This document shows, piece by piece, positions 1,092 through 25,823 of a stretch of DNA of 40,271 nt (position 1 is its first letter; the number at the start of each line of letters is the position of its first letter). The notes under the pieces are model-generated. The model worked only from the letters and a program-made list of their open reading frames with translations, made no database searches and was not told the DNA's origin. The position numbers and the translations under genes are program-made. The DNA comes from a virus, in the IMG/VR virus record IMGVR_UViG_3300023083_000007, positions 1 through 40,271 of that record; one strand, written 5' to 3'.

Positions 1092-1958
1092 TTATCTTAA
1101 TAAATAATCCGCTAAATCCAGTCCATTTTTCCTGTCTTCTGCTGTAGCTAACTTTTCTATGTGATCAGAAATATTAAACCCAAATTCTGCAGCTTTTATT
1201 TTCCACTCTTTATAAGCACCTAAATCAGGGAATAGTGTAACTGATCTATTTTCCAAAACTTTGCATTTGTAATCAGCTAAGCCGCCTTTTTGACCGCAAC
1301 TAATCCAGATGTACTTATCAATAAAACAGCTCGCTATAATAGCTGTCTTTTCGCTTTCTACAATTGCAACCGGCATTGTTGGCTCTACTGTTAAAAGATG
1401 CTCACCAAAAAAGCATTGTTTTAAATTAAAATCCGGATAAGATGGTTTACCAAATATTCGCCTGGAATGTTCCCATGTTGTAGCTGAATCTTTATCCCTG
1501 TGCCCATCTTGTTTATATCTCAGGAACTTACCAGACCTGCAAAACCCTTTACTATCTACTTGCCAATAAATACACCAATCGTTTAATATACCTACGTTGT
1601 AAAGCCTAAATCTATTTTCTATTTCTGCAGCGTCAAATTTCTGAGATAAGAACTTAACAAGAGCATTGTTTTGATACCCTTGAAGACTAGGTATTACAAT
1701 TGAAGCATCGATGTAAGAAGTTGGTTTCTCTACTATTTCTCTTTTTTCAAATACCCAATTAGGATCCGGATTTTCTTTATTGTAACCATCATGATAAGGG
1801 CTGAGGAAATAAGTGCAGTTATCCTCTCTATCGCAACGGCCGTATTTATCAGGCAAATAATTGCCTTCCTGATCTATGAATCTTACAAATGTCTTTTTAT
1901 GACACATCGGGCAAATTGATTTTTTCTTTGCTTTTTCTAAGTTGAATCTATGTACCAT
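1092..1958 (-). CDS. Toprim primase-like protein (DUF6371-like) with zinc-binding N-terminus
   Basis: This 288-aa protein resembles primase/toprim proteins of Bacteroidota phages and mobile elements. The N-terminus has paired cysteines (CPMC near 16-19 and CDREDNC near 42-48), probably a zinc ribbon as in DnaG primases. A toprim-like segment follows: the conserved Glu in VESEKTA near 201-207, then a Gly-rich turn and FPDLG near 244. By family analogy it makes RNA primers or acts with a helicase to do so. It lies downstream of the RepA-like ATPase at 2331, separated by the repeat-rich interval, and its ATG overlaps the stop of the 1958-2320 frame (TAATG). Primase activity is inferred from the family. 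Confidence 0.75.
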   Translation of the reverse strand: MVHRFNLEKAKKKSICPMCHKKTFVRFIDQEGNYLPDKYGRCDREDNCTYFLSPYHDGYNKENPDPNWVFEKREIVEKPTSYIDASIVIPSLQGYQNNALVKFLSQKFDAAEIENRFRLYNVGILNDWCIYWQVDSKGFCRSGKFLRYKQDGHRDKDSATTWEHSRRIFGKPSYPDFNLKQCFFGEHLLTVEPTMPVAIVESEKTAIIASCFIDKYIWISCGQKGGLADYKCKVLENRSVTLFPDLGAYKEWKIKAAEFGFNISDHIEKLATAEDRKNGLDLADYLLR

Positions 1959-2330: not shown

Positions 2331-3377
2331 TTACTTTAATTGATAAAATGTTTTATTGCTCTTTTTTTCTGACTTCTCTAAATATCCGTTTTGGGTATAC
2401 CAGGATATAAAAGTCTTGATTTTAACAACGCCCATAGTTGTTCCATACCCTGCAAATGCTGCAGCTAAATCATTCTGCAGATCAGAATAACTCATTTGTT
2501 CAATTCCTTTAAAAGTTATCTGCAATATTTCGTTATGTGTTTCCTTAGCTATGTCAACAGGTGTTGTTTTCCGGCTGTTACTTTCTCCAGAATCTATACG
2601 AGGCTTCACGGTAACTAAAATTGGGATACCATATGAATCTCGGTCAAAGGCAAATACTTCAAATGGCTTCCCGCGGGTAAACTCTGGCTCGCATACGGTA
2701 TAGTTATCTTCGCTTTTAGACACTTTTATAACTGTCTCTGCCTTATTTACAAGTTCACTACCTAAGTGACCTCTTGCGTGATCAGATCCTTTGTTCTGAT
2801 GAATAATAGAGAGTACATGACAATCGTAAACATCAGCCCAACGCATGAGGTCGCCAGTAATATTTGTGGCTTCTTCAGGGCTATTTATGTCAAACACCAA
2901 ATCTCTTATTCCATCTAAAATGACTATATCCGGCTTATAAGATAATAATAGATGTTCAACTATCTTAATCCTCACTGTTGGATTATAGATTTTTAGGTCA
3001 TAGAAGTTTAAGTATGGTGATTTAGGTGTTCCGGCGATAGACAAAACCCAATATTGGGTACGGGATCCATAATACAAACCCTGCTCTGTGTCAATCCATA
3101 ATACATTTAACTGGTTATTTATTGTTTGTGCTGTAATCCATGCCGTTACGGTTGTTTTACCGACTTTAGCTGGCCCTTTCAATACAGACAAAGATTTTTT
3201 AGTAAATAAAGGGATACCGTTTAAAGCAAATATCAATTCCGGTTCAGGAATAATTACGCCTTGTGGTATATGTGATTCTTCTGCTAACTCAGCTATTGTT
3301 TTAGTGGGTTCAGGCGCATCATTACTGATCTGGCTAGCTAAGTTTAATGCTATATTATTTTCATTCATAATTAGCAT
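2331..3377 (-). CDS. RepA-like AAA ATPase / putative replicative helicase
   Basis: This 348-aa protein is a RecA-fold ATPase of the RepA/DnaB-like type found in plasmids and phages. Walker A is GPAKVGKTT at about residues 68-76; Walker B is the hydrophobic strand ending in LD near 154-155; a sensor-like SIIHQNK lies near 190-196, followed by an RGHLGSE segment typical of these helicases. The C-terminal 80 residues look like a small winged or helical accessory domain. It would unwind DNA ahead of synthesis, probably with the toprim primase at 1092. The first ATG (3377) overlaps the HNH gene stop; a second ATG at 3368 lies just after that stop and is an equally good start. Confidence 0.8.
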   Translation of the reverse strand: MLIMNENNIALNLASQISNDAPEPTKTIAELAEESHIPQGVIIPEPELIFALNGIPLFTKKSLSVLKGPAKVGKTTVTAWITAQTINNQLNVLWIDTEQGLYYGSRTQYWVLSIAGTPKSPYLNFYDLKIYNPTVRIKIVEHLLLSYKPDIVILDGIRDLVFDINSPEEATNITGDLMRWADVYDCHVLSIIHQNKGSDHARGHLGSELVNKAETVIKVSKSEDNYTVCEPEFTRGKPFEVFAFDRDSYGIPILVTVKPRIDSGESNSRKTTPVDIAKETHNEILQITFKGIEQMSYSDLQNDLAAAFAGYGTTMGVVKIKTFISWYTQNGYLEKSEKKSNKTFYQLK

Positions 3378-3863: not shown

Positions 3864-4028
3864 TTATTTCTTTGTTGATTTATCCACAAAAGACTTACCA
3901 AGGAACGTTACCTGTCTGATCTTGCCCTCTTTTATCCAGTTATAAACCGATTGCCGACTTACGCACTCTTGTTTAGCATAATTTTCAACTGTCACCAAAT
4001 TAATTGGGTTTATTTTTTCTTTTTCCAT
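3864..4028 (-). CDS. Short HTH protein, excisionase/MerR-like
   Basis: A 54-aa protein whose central part (about residues 12-45) has the pattern of the excisionase/MerR-type helix-turn-helix (HTH_17): VTVENYAK, then SRQSVYNWI and KIRQV. Such proteins act as excisionases (Xis) or small regulators. No integrase accompanies it, so a regulatory role is more likely. The start (ATG 4028-4026) is set by a promoter-like TATATTTG only 3 nt upstream, with TTG 20 nt further up, predicting a leaderless mRNA. It is separated from the upstream gene by a terminator hairpin at 4074-4101. Confidence 0.75.
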   Translation of the reverse strand: MEKEKINPINLVTVENYAKQECVSRQSVYNWIKEGKIRQVTFLGKSFVDKSTKK

Positions 4029-5275: not shown

Positions 5276-5463
5276 ACCTTTAGTTTTACGACGAATGCGT
5301 TAAAATTAAATGCTATATAAGTCCCTTGAGTGATAGACAGACGATGTAACCTAAAATCATCCTTTTGAAGGAACGATATATATGTTTCGCTTATATCGCC
5401 TATGCCGCTACCATCTCTATTGATTTGACCAATAAATTTAAGTTCGTGACCTTTCTTTTTCAT
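5272..5463 (-). CDS. Hypothetical protein, 63 aa
   Basis: A small protein of unknown function, basic at the N-terminus (MKKKGHELKF) and predicted to be mostly beta strand. There is no signal peptide or membrane segment. It overlaps the upstream 112-aa gene and the downstream 51-aa gene by ATGA junctions. Confidence 0.6.
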   Translation of the reverse strand: MKKKGHELKFIGQINRDGSGIGDISETYISFLQKDDFRLHRLSITQGTYIAFNFNAFVVKLKV

Positions 5464-5798
5464 ACTTCTTTTAATTTTTCAACTCCATCCATAAATTCTC
5501 TAATCTGATCAGCAGACTTTTCAGAAAAATAATCAACCAATCTATGAAACTGCAGCACATAATCGTATGTCATCGCTTCGTAGTCTTTAACCTTGAATTG
5601 ATATGCCAAATCTTTTTGAATCGTTTCTGAGGCTTCTTTGATGCGTCTAACGTGATTATTTGTGTTGGGGTTCTTAAACTTGGTGTCAACTATGCGTTTT
5701 TGGTACTCTACATCAATAGCTTTTGCTAGCAAACCTATTACATGTGCCGATTTAAGTATTTCAAATACTGTTTCGGGTGTTGGGGCTGTCTTGATCAT
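5460..5798 (-). CDS. Hypothetical helical protein, 112 aa
   Basis: Mostly alpha-helical by residue pattern, with no motif recognised. It begins by ATGA overlap with the DnaA-like gene and ends by ATGA overlap with the 63-aa gene, placing it in the same translational chain. Its direct neighbour, the DnaA domain IV protein, suggests but does not prove a role in replication control. Confidence 0.65.
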   Translation of the reverse strand: MIKTAPTPETVFEILKSAHVIGLLAKAIDVEYQKRIVDTKFKNPNTNNHVRRIKEASETIQKDLAYQFKVKDYEAMTYDYVLQFHRLVDYFSEKSADQIREFMDGVEKLKEV

Positions 5799-6148
5799 AA
5801 TAGTGATTTGATATGCGCCACCCGTTTCTGAAATTGACGATCTGTTTTATACAGTGCTTCGTATGTTTGGATTGAAAAGATAACCGTTGAATGGTCTCTA
5901 CCCCCAAACATTCCTCCAATCTTCTTTAGACTTAAGGCAGGATTGTTATACCGTATAAACGCCATTGCAATTTGACGACCTTCTACTAAAGGCCTTTTCC
6001 TGGATGATCCGGTAAGCGTTTCAATCGACACGCCCAAATCAATACATATAGCCTCTATAATGTTTGATGGTGATGCAGGCTTAATCCCTTTTTTCATTAG
6101 CATTTTATTCTTGTCGGATAAACCGGCATAAATGTAAGGACTAACCAT
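5795..6148 (-). CDS. Stand-alone DnaA domain IV (DnaA-box-binding) protein
   Basis: Residues 50-100 of this 117-aa protein carry the DnaA domain IV signature: RPLVEGRQIAM (53-62), SLKKIGGMFG (73-82) and the diagnostic GGRDHSTV (82-89), which in DnaA contacts the DnaA box. The AAA+ ATPase domain is absent; the N-terminal 45 residues are unlike DnaA. It could therefore bind DnaA boxes without the ATP-driven oligomer, either to start phage replication with the host machinery or to compete at host oriC. It overlaps the next gene by ATGA and the previous gene (6141-6350) by 8 bp. Confidence 0.85.
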   Translation of the reverse strand: MVSPYIYAGLSDKNKMLMKKGIKPASPSNIIEAICIDLGVSIETLTGSSRKRPLVEGRQIAMAFIRYNNPALSLKKIGGMFGGRDHSTVIFSIQTYEALYKTDRQFQKRVAHIKSLL

Positions 6149-6350
6149 TAAACGCCCTCCCTTCTACTATTGAGTCGTGCAGTTCCTCCCAGTAATCCAT
6201 ACCAGGTTCATTATTCCAATTGACTGCTAAAAATATAGCATCATATGCTGTTTCTACTTTCATATCAAGCATAGTTATAAATGCCGCATTGATTGCATTC
6301 GTACGGTGTGGTTCCGGTAGTTCTGATAGGTGTTGTTTGATTGTTAGCAT
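6141..6350 (-). CDS. Hypothetical acidic protein, 69 aa
   Basis: A small acidic protein with two probable helices and a WNNEPGMDYWEELHDSI segment. It resembles no characterised family I can name. It overlaps the methyltransferase-like gene upstream (7 bp) and the DnaA-like gene downstream (8 bp). Confidence 0.65.
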   Translation of the reverse strand: MLTIKQHLSELPEPHRTNAINAAFITMLDMKVETAYDAIFLAVNWNNEPGMDYWEELHDSIVEGRAFNG

Positions 6351-7018
6351 GATTGTGAGATTAAAAATTCAACTGACTGTTTTGCTATGGCTTCGGCTAT
6401 TCCTTTGTATGTTTTACTTCTTAGTTCTGCTCTGTTTTTACTAGGTGGTAATAAGTGTAACGCTTGAACTCTACCTTCTACTATCTTTGTAGATTTAACA
6501 TTTGGAAACCCTTTATTCCATAAGCACGTAGCTTTTGTTTCTCCATGTCCAAACATCCAGGGTTGCAATACCTGATCTGGCTTTCTGAAACGGCTACTCA
6601 TGACGCATATTGGATTTTCTATTCTAATGTATGGTATGTCACAATTATAAAGATTCATAAAGAACTTAATAGCCTTCTCTCTGGCCTCTCTACGCCGGGC
6701 CCCAACTAATGTACCTGATTTTCTTTCTGGCTGATCTTTATACCATTTGTTGGCTGAAACAGTAAGATACGTACAATCAGGGTGAAACACAGCGGCGTTC
6801 CATTCTGGTATAATTACTTTACTTCCATCCTGAGTTTCAATATAAATGCTTCCAATTGCTTCAAACACATCCCCTTGTATATGCCATTCTGGATGCCCAC
6901 CGCTGCAAGGCTTAAGATCACAACTAAATGCGTTAACGCCTAACCTTCTAAGTTCAATAGTGATAGCCTGGCTTTCTTCGCAACCCACTAAGAAGTATAT
7001 GTCTTCTGGTCTTTCCAT
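6344..7018 (-). CDS. Phage cytosine-C5 DNA methyltransferase-like protein
   Basis: This 224-aa protein fits a phage family usually labelled DNA cytosine methyltransferase. An N-terminal SAM-fold segment VGCEESQAIT...D (11-34) is followed by FHPDCTYLT (78-86) in the place of the catalytic Pro-Pro-Cys loop, then IENPICVMSS (133-142) in the place of the ENPxG motif, and PDQVLQPWMFGHGETKATCLW (147-167) typical of the family. The Pro before the Cys is Asp and the first Pro is His, so activity is uncertain, although Cys82 is present. A working enzyme would modify phage DNA against host restriction. It overlaps its neighbours by TAATG and 7 bp. Confidence 0.65.
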   Translation of the reverse strand: MERPEDIYFLVGCEESQAITIELRRLGVNAFSCDLKPCSGGHPEWHIQGDVFEAIGSIYIETQDGSKVIIPEWNAAVFHPDCTYLTVSANKWYKDQPERKSGTLVGARRREAREKAIKFFMNLYNCDIPYIRIENPICVMSSRFRKPDQVLQPWMFGHGETKATCLWNKGFPNVKSTKIVEGRVQALHLLPPSKNRAELRSKTYKGIAEAIAKQSVEFLISQSC

Positions 7019-7843: not shown

Positions 7844-8734
7844 TTAATGCGTTAATAAATTGTATATATATTCTCTGCACATATAAGATCTTTGTTCTAT
7901 TAATTTCTGAGCAGGCTTGTCGACGTCAAAGTAAAAAGGTTTAATCCTATCATCTTCTGGTATTTCAATGAAGGTTTCCAGAGTGGAGCCAGGAAACAAA
8001 GCGGACTTAGCTAGTTCAAATTCAGGCTTAGTAAACACCATTCTTTCTGCAATTTTGTACTTTTCATTATCTCCACTAATCCATCTAACGGCGTCTTCAA
8101 CAGCTTCAAAACTTGAATTTATTAAAGTATAACACAAGCATAACTTATCTGCATCCCAAAGTGTTGAATAGTTTTGTAATTGCCACCAATATTTAGGATC
8201 TGGTATTTCAGTTTCAAACATCGGAAAAGTGTCGAGAGACCAACTGCATTTATTGTCATAAACAATACTATTGTGGTTTAAGTCACATTCTCCCTCCGAA
8301 AATTCATTACGTCTGCGCTCTGTATTCTTATAAACCATACCTAACTTTAACTGAACGGCCATTAAGGTAAATGCGTCTTCTTCTCCCTCATTACCTTTGT
8401 TTACATATTTATTTTTAAGTTGCTCACGTCTGCCATAAAGTGTTTGTTTAAGCCATTTTTTGCAATGCGTTTTTGCGCCTTCAGTCAATTCCGGGTTATC
8501 TCTTTTATGAATCAAATCTTTTAAATCAGCCTCTTGCAACAAACTAAGAGGTTTAGCTTTACTGACTAGTCCAGCATATACATTTTCAAAATAAAGTTTT
8601 TGCCTTTCTTCCAGTTGTTTAAGTTTAGATTCTTGGGCTACAGTCAACCCAACTGACCCCCCGCAAATTTCAATAGTTGCACTACCCCTAATACGGAATG
8701 AATCCGCTATTTCTCTGGCTGTAGACTGTTCCAT
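7844..8734 (-). CDS. PD-(D/E)XK recombination exonuclease, YqaJ/lambda-Exo-like
   Basis: The 296-aa protein has the layout of phage recombination exonucleases. A Glu in GNEGEED (about 115-120) precedes the nuclease core GECD (Asp151) and VYDNKC (Asp160-x-Lys162), followed by a YWWQLQNY helix (about 182-189) containing the conserved Gln of the YqaJ/lambda exonuclease group. Such enzymes chew 5' ends so that an annealing protein can pair the exposed strands. The upstream gene (8707-9387), overlapping by 28 bp, encodes a likely annealing partner, so the two form a Red-like pair. About 110 N-terminal residues are helical and unrecognised. Confidence 0.8.
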   Translation of the reverse strand: MEQSTAREIADSFRIRGSATIEICGGSVGLTVAQESKLKQLEERQKLYFENVYAGLVSKAKPLSLLQEADLKDLIHKRDNPELTEGAKTHCKKWLKQTLYGRREQLKNKYVNKGNEGEEDAFTLMAVQLKLGMVYKNTERRRNEFSEGECDLNHNSIVYDNKCSWSLDTFPMFETEIPDPKYWWQLQNYSTLWDADKLCLCYTLINSSFEAVEDAVRWISGDNEKYKIAERMVFTKPEFELAKSALFPGSTLETFIEIPEDDRIKPFYFDVDKPAQKLIEQRSYMCREYIYNLLTH

Positions 8735-9387
8735 TTTTCTTCAAATTGACTGGTTATAGATTCTGTTAAATGTGAACGGAGCGATTCTAGCACCTCTAAG
8801 CTATCAGATTTATCAATCAAGGTTAACATTCGTATTTCTTCTTTACTACGAACTACCTCCGCTAATTTAGCGTCCATTTGGAAGGCTAGTACATCCTTCC
8901 GGTTTAAGTTAGCTCCAAAGATATCACCTAACATGTCAGCGGCATCTTTTAGCGCAACTGTTTTCGCAAGCGGGAAAGCCATACTTAAAGCGCCGTTGTT
9001 AATGTTAGCTAAATCTGCAGGAGAAGTGCCTTTAGCTGTTTGCAATTGAACTGCGCCTATGCCGTCTTGACATTCCATTTCTCCTGTTACCAAATCTTGA
9101 TACCAGAGCCTTACCACAACATAAACACCATTAAAAGAAGTTCCCTCCCTAAGAATTTCAATTCTGTATTTTTTAAATATCTTTTTTAGCATAAACTCTA
9201 CCTTTTCAATAGGCAAGTATTTATATCCTTTAATATAAGGATGTTCTTTAACCCACGATTTAGGGGGCGACTGATTAAGGTAGTGCGATACCATGTCTTG
9301 CTTAAGTGCAATTTCTGGGTTTGCATATAATTCCTGCATTGACGGCACTTTTGATTCTGATATTGTTAAATCTGTAGTTTCTTTCAT
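8707..9387 (-). CDS. Single-strand annealing protein, Rad52/RecT-like
   Basis: This 226-aa protein resembles phage Rad52/22-RecT-like annealing proteins. A central beta-rich part (about 55-115) has YKYLPIEKVEFML and YVVVRLWYQDL strands, and a helical part (142-162) reads KTVALKDAADMLGDIFG, comparable to the AlKRA...FG helix of Rad52-type proteins. It would coat and anneal ssDNA made by the exonuclease encoded next to it (28-bp overlap). The pair probably serves recombination-dependent replication or repair. Which of the Rad52, RecT or Erf clans it belongs to cannot be settled by eye. Confidence 0.7.
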   Translation of the reverse strand: MKETTDLTISESKVPSMQELYANPEIALKQDMVSHYLNQSPPKSWVKEHPYIKGYKYLPIEKVEFMLKKIFKKYRIEILREGTSFNGVYVVVRLWYQDLVTGEMECQDGIGAVQLQTAKGTSPADLANINNGALSMAFPLAKTVALKDAADMLGDIFGANLNRKDVLAFQMDAKLAEVVRSKEEIRMLTLIDKSDSLEVLESLRSHLTESITSQFEEKWNSLQPEK

Positions 9388-9470
9388 TTATATAAATATT
9401 TAACTATTAAAAATACTCCGATAATACCCATTGTTATGGTTATCCGTAAAAACCAAGTGTATTTAAGCAT
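9384..9470 (-). CDS. Single-span membrane microprotein, 28 aa
   Basis: ATG 9470 to TGA 9386-9384. It overlaps the stop of the upstream gene by 8 bp and the annealing-protein start by ATGA. Nearly the whole peptide is one hydrophobic helix (residues 4-25) flanked by Lys, as in other tiny phage membrane peptides. Function is unknown. Confidence 0.55.
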   Translation of the reverse strand: MLKYTWFLRITITMGIIGVFLIVKYLYK

Positions 9471-10372: not shown

Positions 10373-10623
10373 CAAAAATACCAACAAAAGAAAATCCTAT
10401 ACCTTATAAATTTCCGTTTAGGGTTGGTCGTAAAAAATCAATAGCTATACTTGATGCTGATTCTTGTGAGATAGTTATATTTCCTCGTGGTAGTGAAGAA
10501 ATAGCCAGAATTACATGTATGCTTTGGAATAATTGGCATAAAGAATTAATAGAAGCATGTTCTTTTTCAGAACAACGCACTTATCAAAAAGTATCTTATA
10601 TAAAAGAAAAAAAAATAATATGA
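10369..10623 (+). CDS. Hypothetical protein, 84 aa
   Basis: An unrecognised small protein, basic at both ends with a beta-rich middle (SIAILDADSCEIVIFPRG) and a helix with LWNNWHKELIEA. It is joined by ATGA overlaps to the RHH-like gene and to the following microprotein. Confidence 0.65.
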   Translation: MTKIPTKENPIPYKFPFRVGRKKSIAILDADSCEIVIFPRGSEEIARITCMLWNNWHKELIEACSFSEQRTYQKVSYIKEKKII

Positions 10624-10718
10624 CCCCACTAGACTACACGTTTATTGCCTTTAAAGTATTGGTAATAGCAGTAATTGTATATTTTTTAATTTGCTCACGA
10701 GGCGTAAAACCGGAATAA
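10620..10718 (+). CDS. Single-span membrane microprotein, 32 aa
   Basis: ATG 10620 overlaps the previous stop by ATGA; TAA is at 10716-10718, 1 bp before the next start. A hydrophobic helix (about residues 8-25, FIAFKVLVIAVIVYFLI) is followed by a short basic tail. No family was recognised. Confidence 0.55.
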   Translation: MTPLDYTFIAFKVLVIAVIVYFLICSRGVKPE

Positions 10719-25153: not shown

Positions 25154-25567
25154 ATGGAAAATAGAAAAACACCCATAGTCACCATTGACCTTGAAGAATA
25201 CAAAGCGTTACTGAGAACAAGAGATATATATGACAGAATGATGTCTCTTAGAGTTGGAGGCAAAGCGTTTGCTATATATATGAAATCTAGCCCGAATGGT
25301 TTCGCTTGGGAGTTCGATAGAACGTACGTTGTGTATAACGAGAATGAATATATTTCTGAGATGCAATCTGCATTAAAAGTTGCTGAAAAGGAAATGAAAG
25401 GTATGTATGATTTGAAATCTCACAACGAATCTCTTATGTCAATAGCAAAAGATCAATCAGACTTGCTTACGTTCATTAAAAATAAATGGTGGTATAGGCT
25501 GTTCACTAAATTCATCTCAATTGAGGAAGAATTTCATTACCTTAAAAGTAGGCGCACCAAGTATTAA
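25154..25567 (+). CDS. Hypothetical protein, 137 aa
   Basis: I chose ATG 25154 over the TTG at 25148, which overlaps the -7 box. The N-terminus has a TPIVTIDLEEYKALLRTRD segment common in small Bacteroidota phage proteins, and the rest is helical with a possible coiled coil. Function is unknown. It is the first gene of the plus-strand island that includes the RNA ligase. Confidence 0.65.
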   Translation: MENRKTPIVTIDLEEYKALLRTRDIYDRMMSLRVGGKAFAIYMKSSPNGFAWEFDRTYVVYNENEYISEMQSALKVAEKEMKGMYDLKSHNESLMSIAKDQSDLLTFIKNKWWYRLFTKFISIEEEFHYLKSRRTKY

Positions 25568-25577
25568 CCTGTAATGT

Positions 25578-25823
25578 ATGATCCGAACCGAAAACGCATG
25601 CTTAGGCAAAATATCCTATGATACAGCAGAACAGGCAAATTCATCTGTAGCGAATATCAACAAGGGGTGTAAAAAGAAAAGGATGGTTAGTTATAAGTGT
25701 CCGCATTGCAAGAAATTTCACAATGGACATCAAAACAAAGGTAAAACAATGAAACACGACCAGAAGATGAAGCCGATTAATTACGTGCATATTCCTGGAA
25801 TACATAAATTAGAAGAAGAATAG
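25578..25823 (+). CDS. Small zinc-ribbon protein, 81 aa
   Basis: A YKCPHCKKFHNGH segment (about 39-51) with two Cys and two His suggests a zinc knuckle; the N-terminal part has KISYDTAEQANSSVAN, a pattern seen in small phage proteins that accompany translation- or RNA-related genes. It is very basic throughout and may bind RNA or DNA. It ends 2 bp before the RNA ligase gene, so the two are probably expressed together. Confidence 0.6.
   Translation: MIRTENACLGKISYDTAEQANSSVANINKGCKKKRMVSYKCPHCKKFHNGHQNKGKTMKHDQKMKPINYVHIPGIHKLEEE

Follow-up and report, generated by a model that had tools for sequence, protein, structure and literature searches.

The domain IV gene and its neighbourhood

The stretch analysed here, hereafter the window, spans positions 1 to 40,271 (40,271 nucleotides) of the IMG/VR virus record IMGVR_UViG_3300023083_000007. 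A gene encoding a DnaA domain IV without the AAA+ part is located at 5795-6148, within a leftward early operon that includes exonuclease, methyltransferase-like, HNH, AAA_25 helicase and Zn-ribbon/DUF6371 primase-like genes. The closest relatives of the TerL protein of the window are found in Nonlabens, Riemerella and Olleya phages, and the DNA is therefore likely to derive from a flavobacterial tailed phage. A sister phage, IMGVR_UViG_3300023082_000005 (G001; loci L002, L115 and L116), was used for comparison. The relevant genes are:

1092..1958, minus strand: Zn-ribbon/DUF6371 protein (Pfam PF19898, PF21957), probable primase, without homolog in the sister phage
2331..3377, minus strand: RecA/DnaB-type AAA_25 ATPase (Pfam AAA_25, phrog_19), probable replicative helicase, without homolog in the sister phage
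5460..5798, minus strand: 112-aa helical ORF overlapping the domain IV stop by 4 nt; cassette member, 93% aa identity in the sister phage
5795..6148, minus strand: stand-alone DnaA domain IV gene (ATG at 6148, stop ending at 5795), 117 aa
6141..6350, minus strand: 69-aa ORF overlapping the domain IV start; cassette member, 93% aa identity and same order in the sister phage
6344..7018, minus strand: DNA methyltransferase-like protein (phrog_757, E 1e-54), upstream in the operon, without homolog in the sister phage
7844..8734, minus strand: phage exonuclease (phrog_5715, E 3.7e-36), recombination module

Residues 28-94 of the 117-aa protein match the Pfam family Bac_DnaA_C (PF08299) with 67.4 bits (cut-off 31.5, E 1.2e-18), covering positions 2-67 of the 69 of the model. 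No second Pfam family was detected in the protein by the Pfam scan, and a profile search of the whole record revealed no further Bac_DnaA_C match. The protein aligns to the last ~98 of the 437 positions of the NCBIfam DnaA model TIGR00362, scoring 73 bits against a cut-off of 343.9; it has neither the AAA+ domain III with Walker motifs nor the full-model match that define a full-length DnaA initiator. A search of PDB sequences returned DnaA matches only. The preliminary description of an orphan domain IV is borne out, and the two motifs on which it relied, RQIAM (residues 58-62) and GGRDHSTV (residues 82-89), are both intact.

The protein is 91% identical to the sister-phage copy, with dN 0.047 and dS 0.95 (dN/dS about 0.05). 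The gene is thus under strong purifying selection, and is not a chance ORF. The flanking 69- and 112-aa ORFs match no family of known function in the profile libraries searched; a homolog of the former weakly matches PHROG 25460, which has no assigned function. The predicted structure of the 112-aa product, an all-helical model, was set aside because confidence was too low; this product is a possible partner of the domain IV protein. The homolog of the 1092..1958 protein in csAssE is annotated as DNA primase/helicase.

Predicted fold and DNA-contact residues

An AlphaFold model built from a 20-sequence alignment has a mean pLDDT of 85, exceeding 90 over residues ~30-117, that is, most of the domain; residues 1-10 are disordered, and are followed by a lower-confidence helix at 12-19. 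The best solved structures retrieved by Foldseek are DnaA DNA-binding domains (3pvp, 8btg, 1j1v), and nothing else scored a probability above 0.25. TMt values to isolated, box-bound domains are 0.86 (1j1v) and 0.86-0.87 (3pvp), while 8btg is a cryo-EM DnaA complex. The structural check proposed earlier hence agrees with a domain IV fold. Residue equivalences were taken from an alignment anchored to E. coli DnaA, and two DNA-contacting elements were located:

5843..5893, minus strand: predicted recognition helix, residues 86-102 (HSTV...), from the E. coli alignment and DSSP of the model
5972..6007, minus strand: basic loop, residues 48-59 (SSRKRPLVEGRQ), in which R50 corresponds to R399 and R58 to R407, from the alignment

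In E. coli DnaA, R399 reads the TTA half of the box via the minor groove, helix 434-451 reads TNCACA in the major groove, and both R399A and T435M are defective in DnaA-box binding (PMC5742627). The phage protein retains R399 (R50), R407 (R58), Q408, G426, R432, D433 (D85), H434 (H86) and T436 (T88), and has substitutions at T435 (Ser), P423 (Lys), K443 (Thr) and R405 (Glu); H86, S87 and T88 are the equivalents of H434, T435 and T436. Loss of the box contacts would have spoken against the preliminary description: the basic-loop arginine R399 and the recognition-helix readers are all present, with T435 as Ser. Serine is found at this position in 17 of 89 phage orphans, and also in GafA (S43) (PMC9638019). 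Since the base-reading residues are kept, and Ser is seen elsewhere at the T435 position, binding of DnaA-box-type DNA by the phage protein is plausible.

Residues 5-10 (6119-6136) form a short Y-I/V-x-x-P/A-G-like stretch. Similar stretches were noticed at the C-terminus (NYVHIPGIHKLEEE) of an unrelated small phage protein encoded at 25578-25823 of the window, and at the N-terminus of another domain IV orphan (MNYIAVPGMK; L018:1329-1673). They are possibly a shared short linear motif.

The same cassette beside different replication genes

The 69-aa ORF, the domain IV gene and the 112-aa ORF lie in an 890-bp block that is 88% identical at the nucleotide level in the window and the sister phage, whereas identity across structural genes is for the most part 65-80%. 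At the protein level, the sister phage lacks homologs of the window's primase, helicase, HNH, HTH and methyltransferase genes, and carries instead a gene for a 759-aa Prim-Pol/DUF3987 protein with a C-terminal HTH, followed by an iteron array at 33.43-33.70 kb (L116:13528-13800). The array, likely the replication origin, is made of GTGTAAACC inverted repeats/palindromes and four 12-bp direct repeats (TTTGGTTTACAC); GTGTAAACC is absent from the window. The two genomes thus differ in primase-helicase and putative origin, and keep the same cassette. For these two phages, no other observation argues as strongly against the cassette being part of one dedicated origin; judging from the sequences, the cassette seems portable and separate from the type of primase-helicase of the phage. 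Tiny membrane-peptide ORFs at 9382-9455 and 10620-10707 of the window also have 85-97% nucleotide identity to the sister phage, in an early region that is otherwise diverged.

DnaA boxes and other candidate target words

The genome scan for DnaA boxes suggested in the preliminary description found two exact TTATNCACA matches in the window, against 2.5 expected:

3880..3888, plus strand: single perfect consensus DnaA box TTATCCACA, inside a 56-aa HTH ORF (box scan)
25330..25338, minus strand: sole other TTATNCACA match (TTATACACA), not above chance (box scan)

Neither is syntenic in the sister phage, and TTATCCACA at 3880 was rejected as a functional site for this reason and because the count is at chance. 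Near-boxes (at most one mismatch) are mildly depleted. Thirty were found in the window, against 57 expected from a Markov model and 58 from dinucleotide shuffles, and only 0.7% of 300 permuted patterns were as low; 34 were found in the sister phage against 58 expected, with 3.3% of permuted patterns as low. Shuffling synonymous codons shrinks the deficit (29 vs 42.4 +/- 5.0 in the window, 28 vs 38.2 +/- 5.9 in the sister phage), which is thus explained partly, not wholly, by codon usage. Near-boxes are not depleted in the flavophages RAP44 and Harreka, and avoidance of box-like words in the two related phages is at best weak. In alignable regions, 1 of 13 near-boxes is conserved between them.

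The scan was extended to 70 non-redundant loci hosting an orphan domain IV (962 kb). Exact boxes were 21 against 12.8 +/- 2.8 expected, scattered singly; near-boxes were as numerous as expected; and none of the 70 loci contained three exact boxes within 500 bp. An array of DnaA boxes like that of oriC was accordingly found neither in the window, nor in the sister phage, nor in the related loci.

These data bear on the idea, put forward in the preliminary description, that the protein marks the phage origin, binding boxes there and recruiting host DnaA, the helicase or the phage primase-helicase. The gene does share an early operon with genes for recombination and replication; its counterpart in Tenacibaculum phage Gundel_1 lies between NinB and two replication proteins; replication-initiation or primosomal neighbours are frequent in alphaproteobacterial-type phages; and one pelagiphage annotation reads 'DNA replication initiation'. 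Boxes are however neither in excess, nor clustered, nor conserved, and the cassette has outlasted a change of primase, helicase and putative origin. Marking of an origin through DnaA boxes is consequently disfavoured, and we regard it as unlikely.

The word TGTTACA was also considered as a target. Seven of its ten copies in the window fall in intergenic promoter regions (at 171, 15647, 25094, 25114, 28808, 34336 and 36759; binomial p about 1e-7), and their placement with respect to Bacteroidota TAnnTTTG elements varies. A promoter word common to window and sister phage did not emerge: TGTTACA shows no enrichment in the latter, although the domain IV proteins are 91% identical; it was rejected as target of the domain IV protein, and is more likely the word of another regulator, of which the copies look like operators.

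Spread of orphan domain IV genes among phages

Profile scans of IMG/VR identified about 89 distinct AAA+-less domain IV ORFs shorter than 340 aa, mostly of 100-280 aa. Many annotated domain IV proteins were found in viral structure and genome libraries, including those of cultured Cellulophaga, Tenacibaculum, Olleya, Flavobacterium, Pelagibacter, Rhizobium, Aurantimonas and Synechococcus phages. Carriers include Olleya phage Harreka_1 (gp24), Tenacibaculum phage Gundel_1 (gene 36), Cellulophaga phages phi46:1, phi19:1 and phi19:3, pelagiphages (HTVC203P) and Rhizobium phage RHph_TM3_3_3. Two fecal 'Bacteriophage sp.' entries retrieved by tblastn and opened (L004, MT839132.1; L005, MT835965.1) are fragments of bacterial chromosomes with full-length dnaA, and were for this reason left out of the orphan count. 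Of the bacterial contig matches, L087 and L088 are full-length DnaA and L089 is a chance match, so that no chromosomal orphan is found among these.

The largest cluster of neighbours of phage orphans (19 members) consists of replication-initiation/primosomal-type proteins, and NusG-type antiterminators are neighbours at seven orphan loci. Two domain IV genes per locus were observed in L017:7363-8273, L064:6851-8210 and L030, in near-tandem in the first two.

In a tree of 105 sequences and 99 columns, many forks of which are unresolved, the window protein groups with L002 (the sister phage) and L003, outside the clade of Bacteroidota chromosomal DnaAs; direct descent from a host dnaA was on this ground discarded. 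L102 and L098 fall within that clade, and the end of dnaA has therefore probably been captured by phages more than once.

The position in the tree matters for the proposal that the protein aids host take-over. A motor-less competitor could occupy host DnaA boxes, at oriC or at DnaA-controlled promoters, slow host initiation and free replication proteins for the phage. Such a role would fit with the retention of R399, R407, D433, H434 and T436, with the independence of the cassette from the phage's own type of replication, and with the scarcity of box-like words in the window and sister phage, not seen in RAP44 and Harreka. The depletion is nonetheless weak, in two phages that are not independent of each other, and the protein falls outside the Bacteroidota chromosomal clade. 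The recognition helix reads RDHST versus KDHAT in the Bacteroidota chromosomal DnaAs seen, so that the phage protein may not read host boxes; moreover, the literature searched yielded no phage factor of this type. Host take-over is in our opinion improbable, and it is a shade more doubtful still that decoys which sit on host DnaA boxes and turn off initiation of the host chromosome, encoded by box-poor genomes, are a strategy common to flavophages, pelagiphages and rhizobial phages.

That the gene is a relic, the truncated end of a captured dnaA with no present function, would account for the loss of the AAA+ part and has precedents in the recent captures L102 and L098, but is largely refuted by the dN/dS value and hard to reconcile with contact residues that are intact, a cassette that is conserved and the occurrence of such genes in many phage lineages, and can be given very little credit.

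A putative regulator or adaptor

The domain IV protein is best seen, with a probability of about 0.45, as a regulator or adaptor that binds DNA at specific sequences, the best guess being that it acts on phage DNA in the manner of GafY. This reading is favoured by the analogy to GafA and GafY, by the portability of the cassette and by the lack of a box array. Domain IV alone, free of DnaA domains I-III, cannot act as initiator. The free-standing domain would grip double-stranded DnaA-box-like DNA with R50 reaching into the minor groove and helix 86-102 lying in the major one. The 117-aa protein cannot bind ATP, assemble into a DnaA filament, separate DNA strands or load a helicase, because the parts needed for these activities are missing. 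As part of a portable three-gene early cassette, in an operon for recombination and replication, it may hold a partner at a small number of sites, rather than labelling an origin built from DnaA boxes; the partner could be RNA polymerase, the one used by GafY, or a replication protein of phage or host. Several observations count against regulation: no target site was found for the domain IV protein, no GafZ/sigma-like gene adjoins it, the analogy to GafA is not close, and the neighbours of orphans across phages point to replication as much as to transcription.

Short domain IV proteins occur in unrelated phages, marine ones included. Annotations routinely name them 'replication initiator DnaA', a function that they cannot perform on their own. 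Settling whether they serve phage gene regulation, replication or a block of host initiation would put many annotations right and could reveal a general phage route to interference with DnaA. The sister-phage pair, with one cassette and two replication machineries, is a ready test case.

Comparison with known systems

The phage protein shares with DnaA domain IV (1J1V, 3PVP) the fold and the groove readers R399, R407, D433, H434 and T436, and differs from DnaA in lacking domains I-III, and from domain IV in having 26 additional N-terminal residues, among them a YIYAGL stretch. Phage proteins annotated as 'DnaA C-terminal' are similarly short and AAA+-less, are often encoded in replication/recombination regions, and are about 18-38% identical to the window protein over the aligned part; no functional test of them was found in the literature searched. 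Stand-alone domain IV is therefore not special to this phage, being widespread and already annotated. The preliminary view of these proteins as little studied holds for their function; it does not hold for the kind, which also has characterised relatives in function.

The latter are GafA of Rhodobacter and GafY (= HdaB) of Caulobacter, AAA+-less domain IV-type transcription activators of gene transfer agents that contact RNA polymerase (PMC6363796, PMC9638019, PMC11150451, PMC9632790). Both turn on phage-derived gene clusters via RpoD or the omega subunit (PMC11150451, PMC9638019, PMC9632790), and the over-replication effects of GafY/HdaB have been reinterpreted as a result of gene-transfer-agent induction (PMC9632790). 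Like the window protein, GafA, in its N-terminal domain, and GafY feature a domain IV DNA-binding domain without AAA+ motor in phage-derived elements, the likeness to GafY being one of described domain make-up. GafA has lost the equivalent of R399 (E8), which the window protein keeps (PMC9638019), and the analogy to GafA is hence not close. GafA is moreover fused to a sigma-like GafZ part, and GafY is paired with one, whereas no such part, adjacent or fused, accompanies the domain IV gene of the window.
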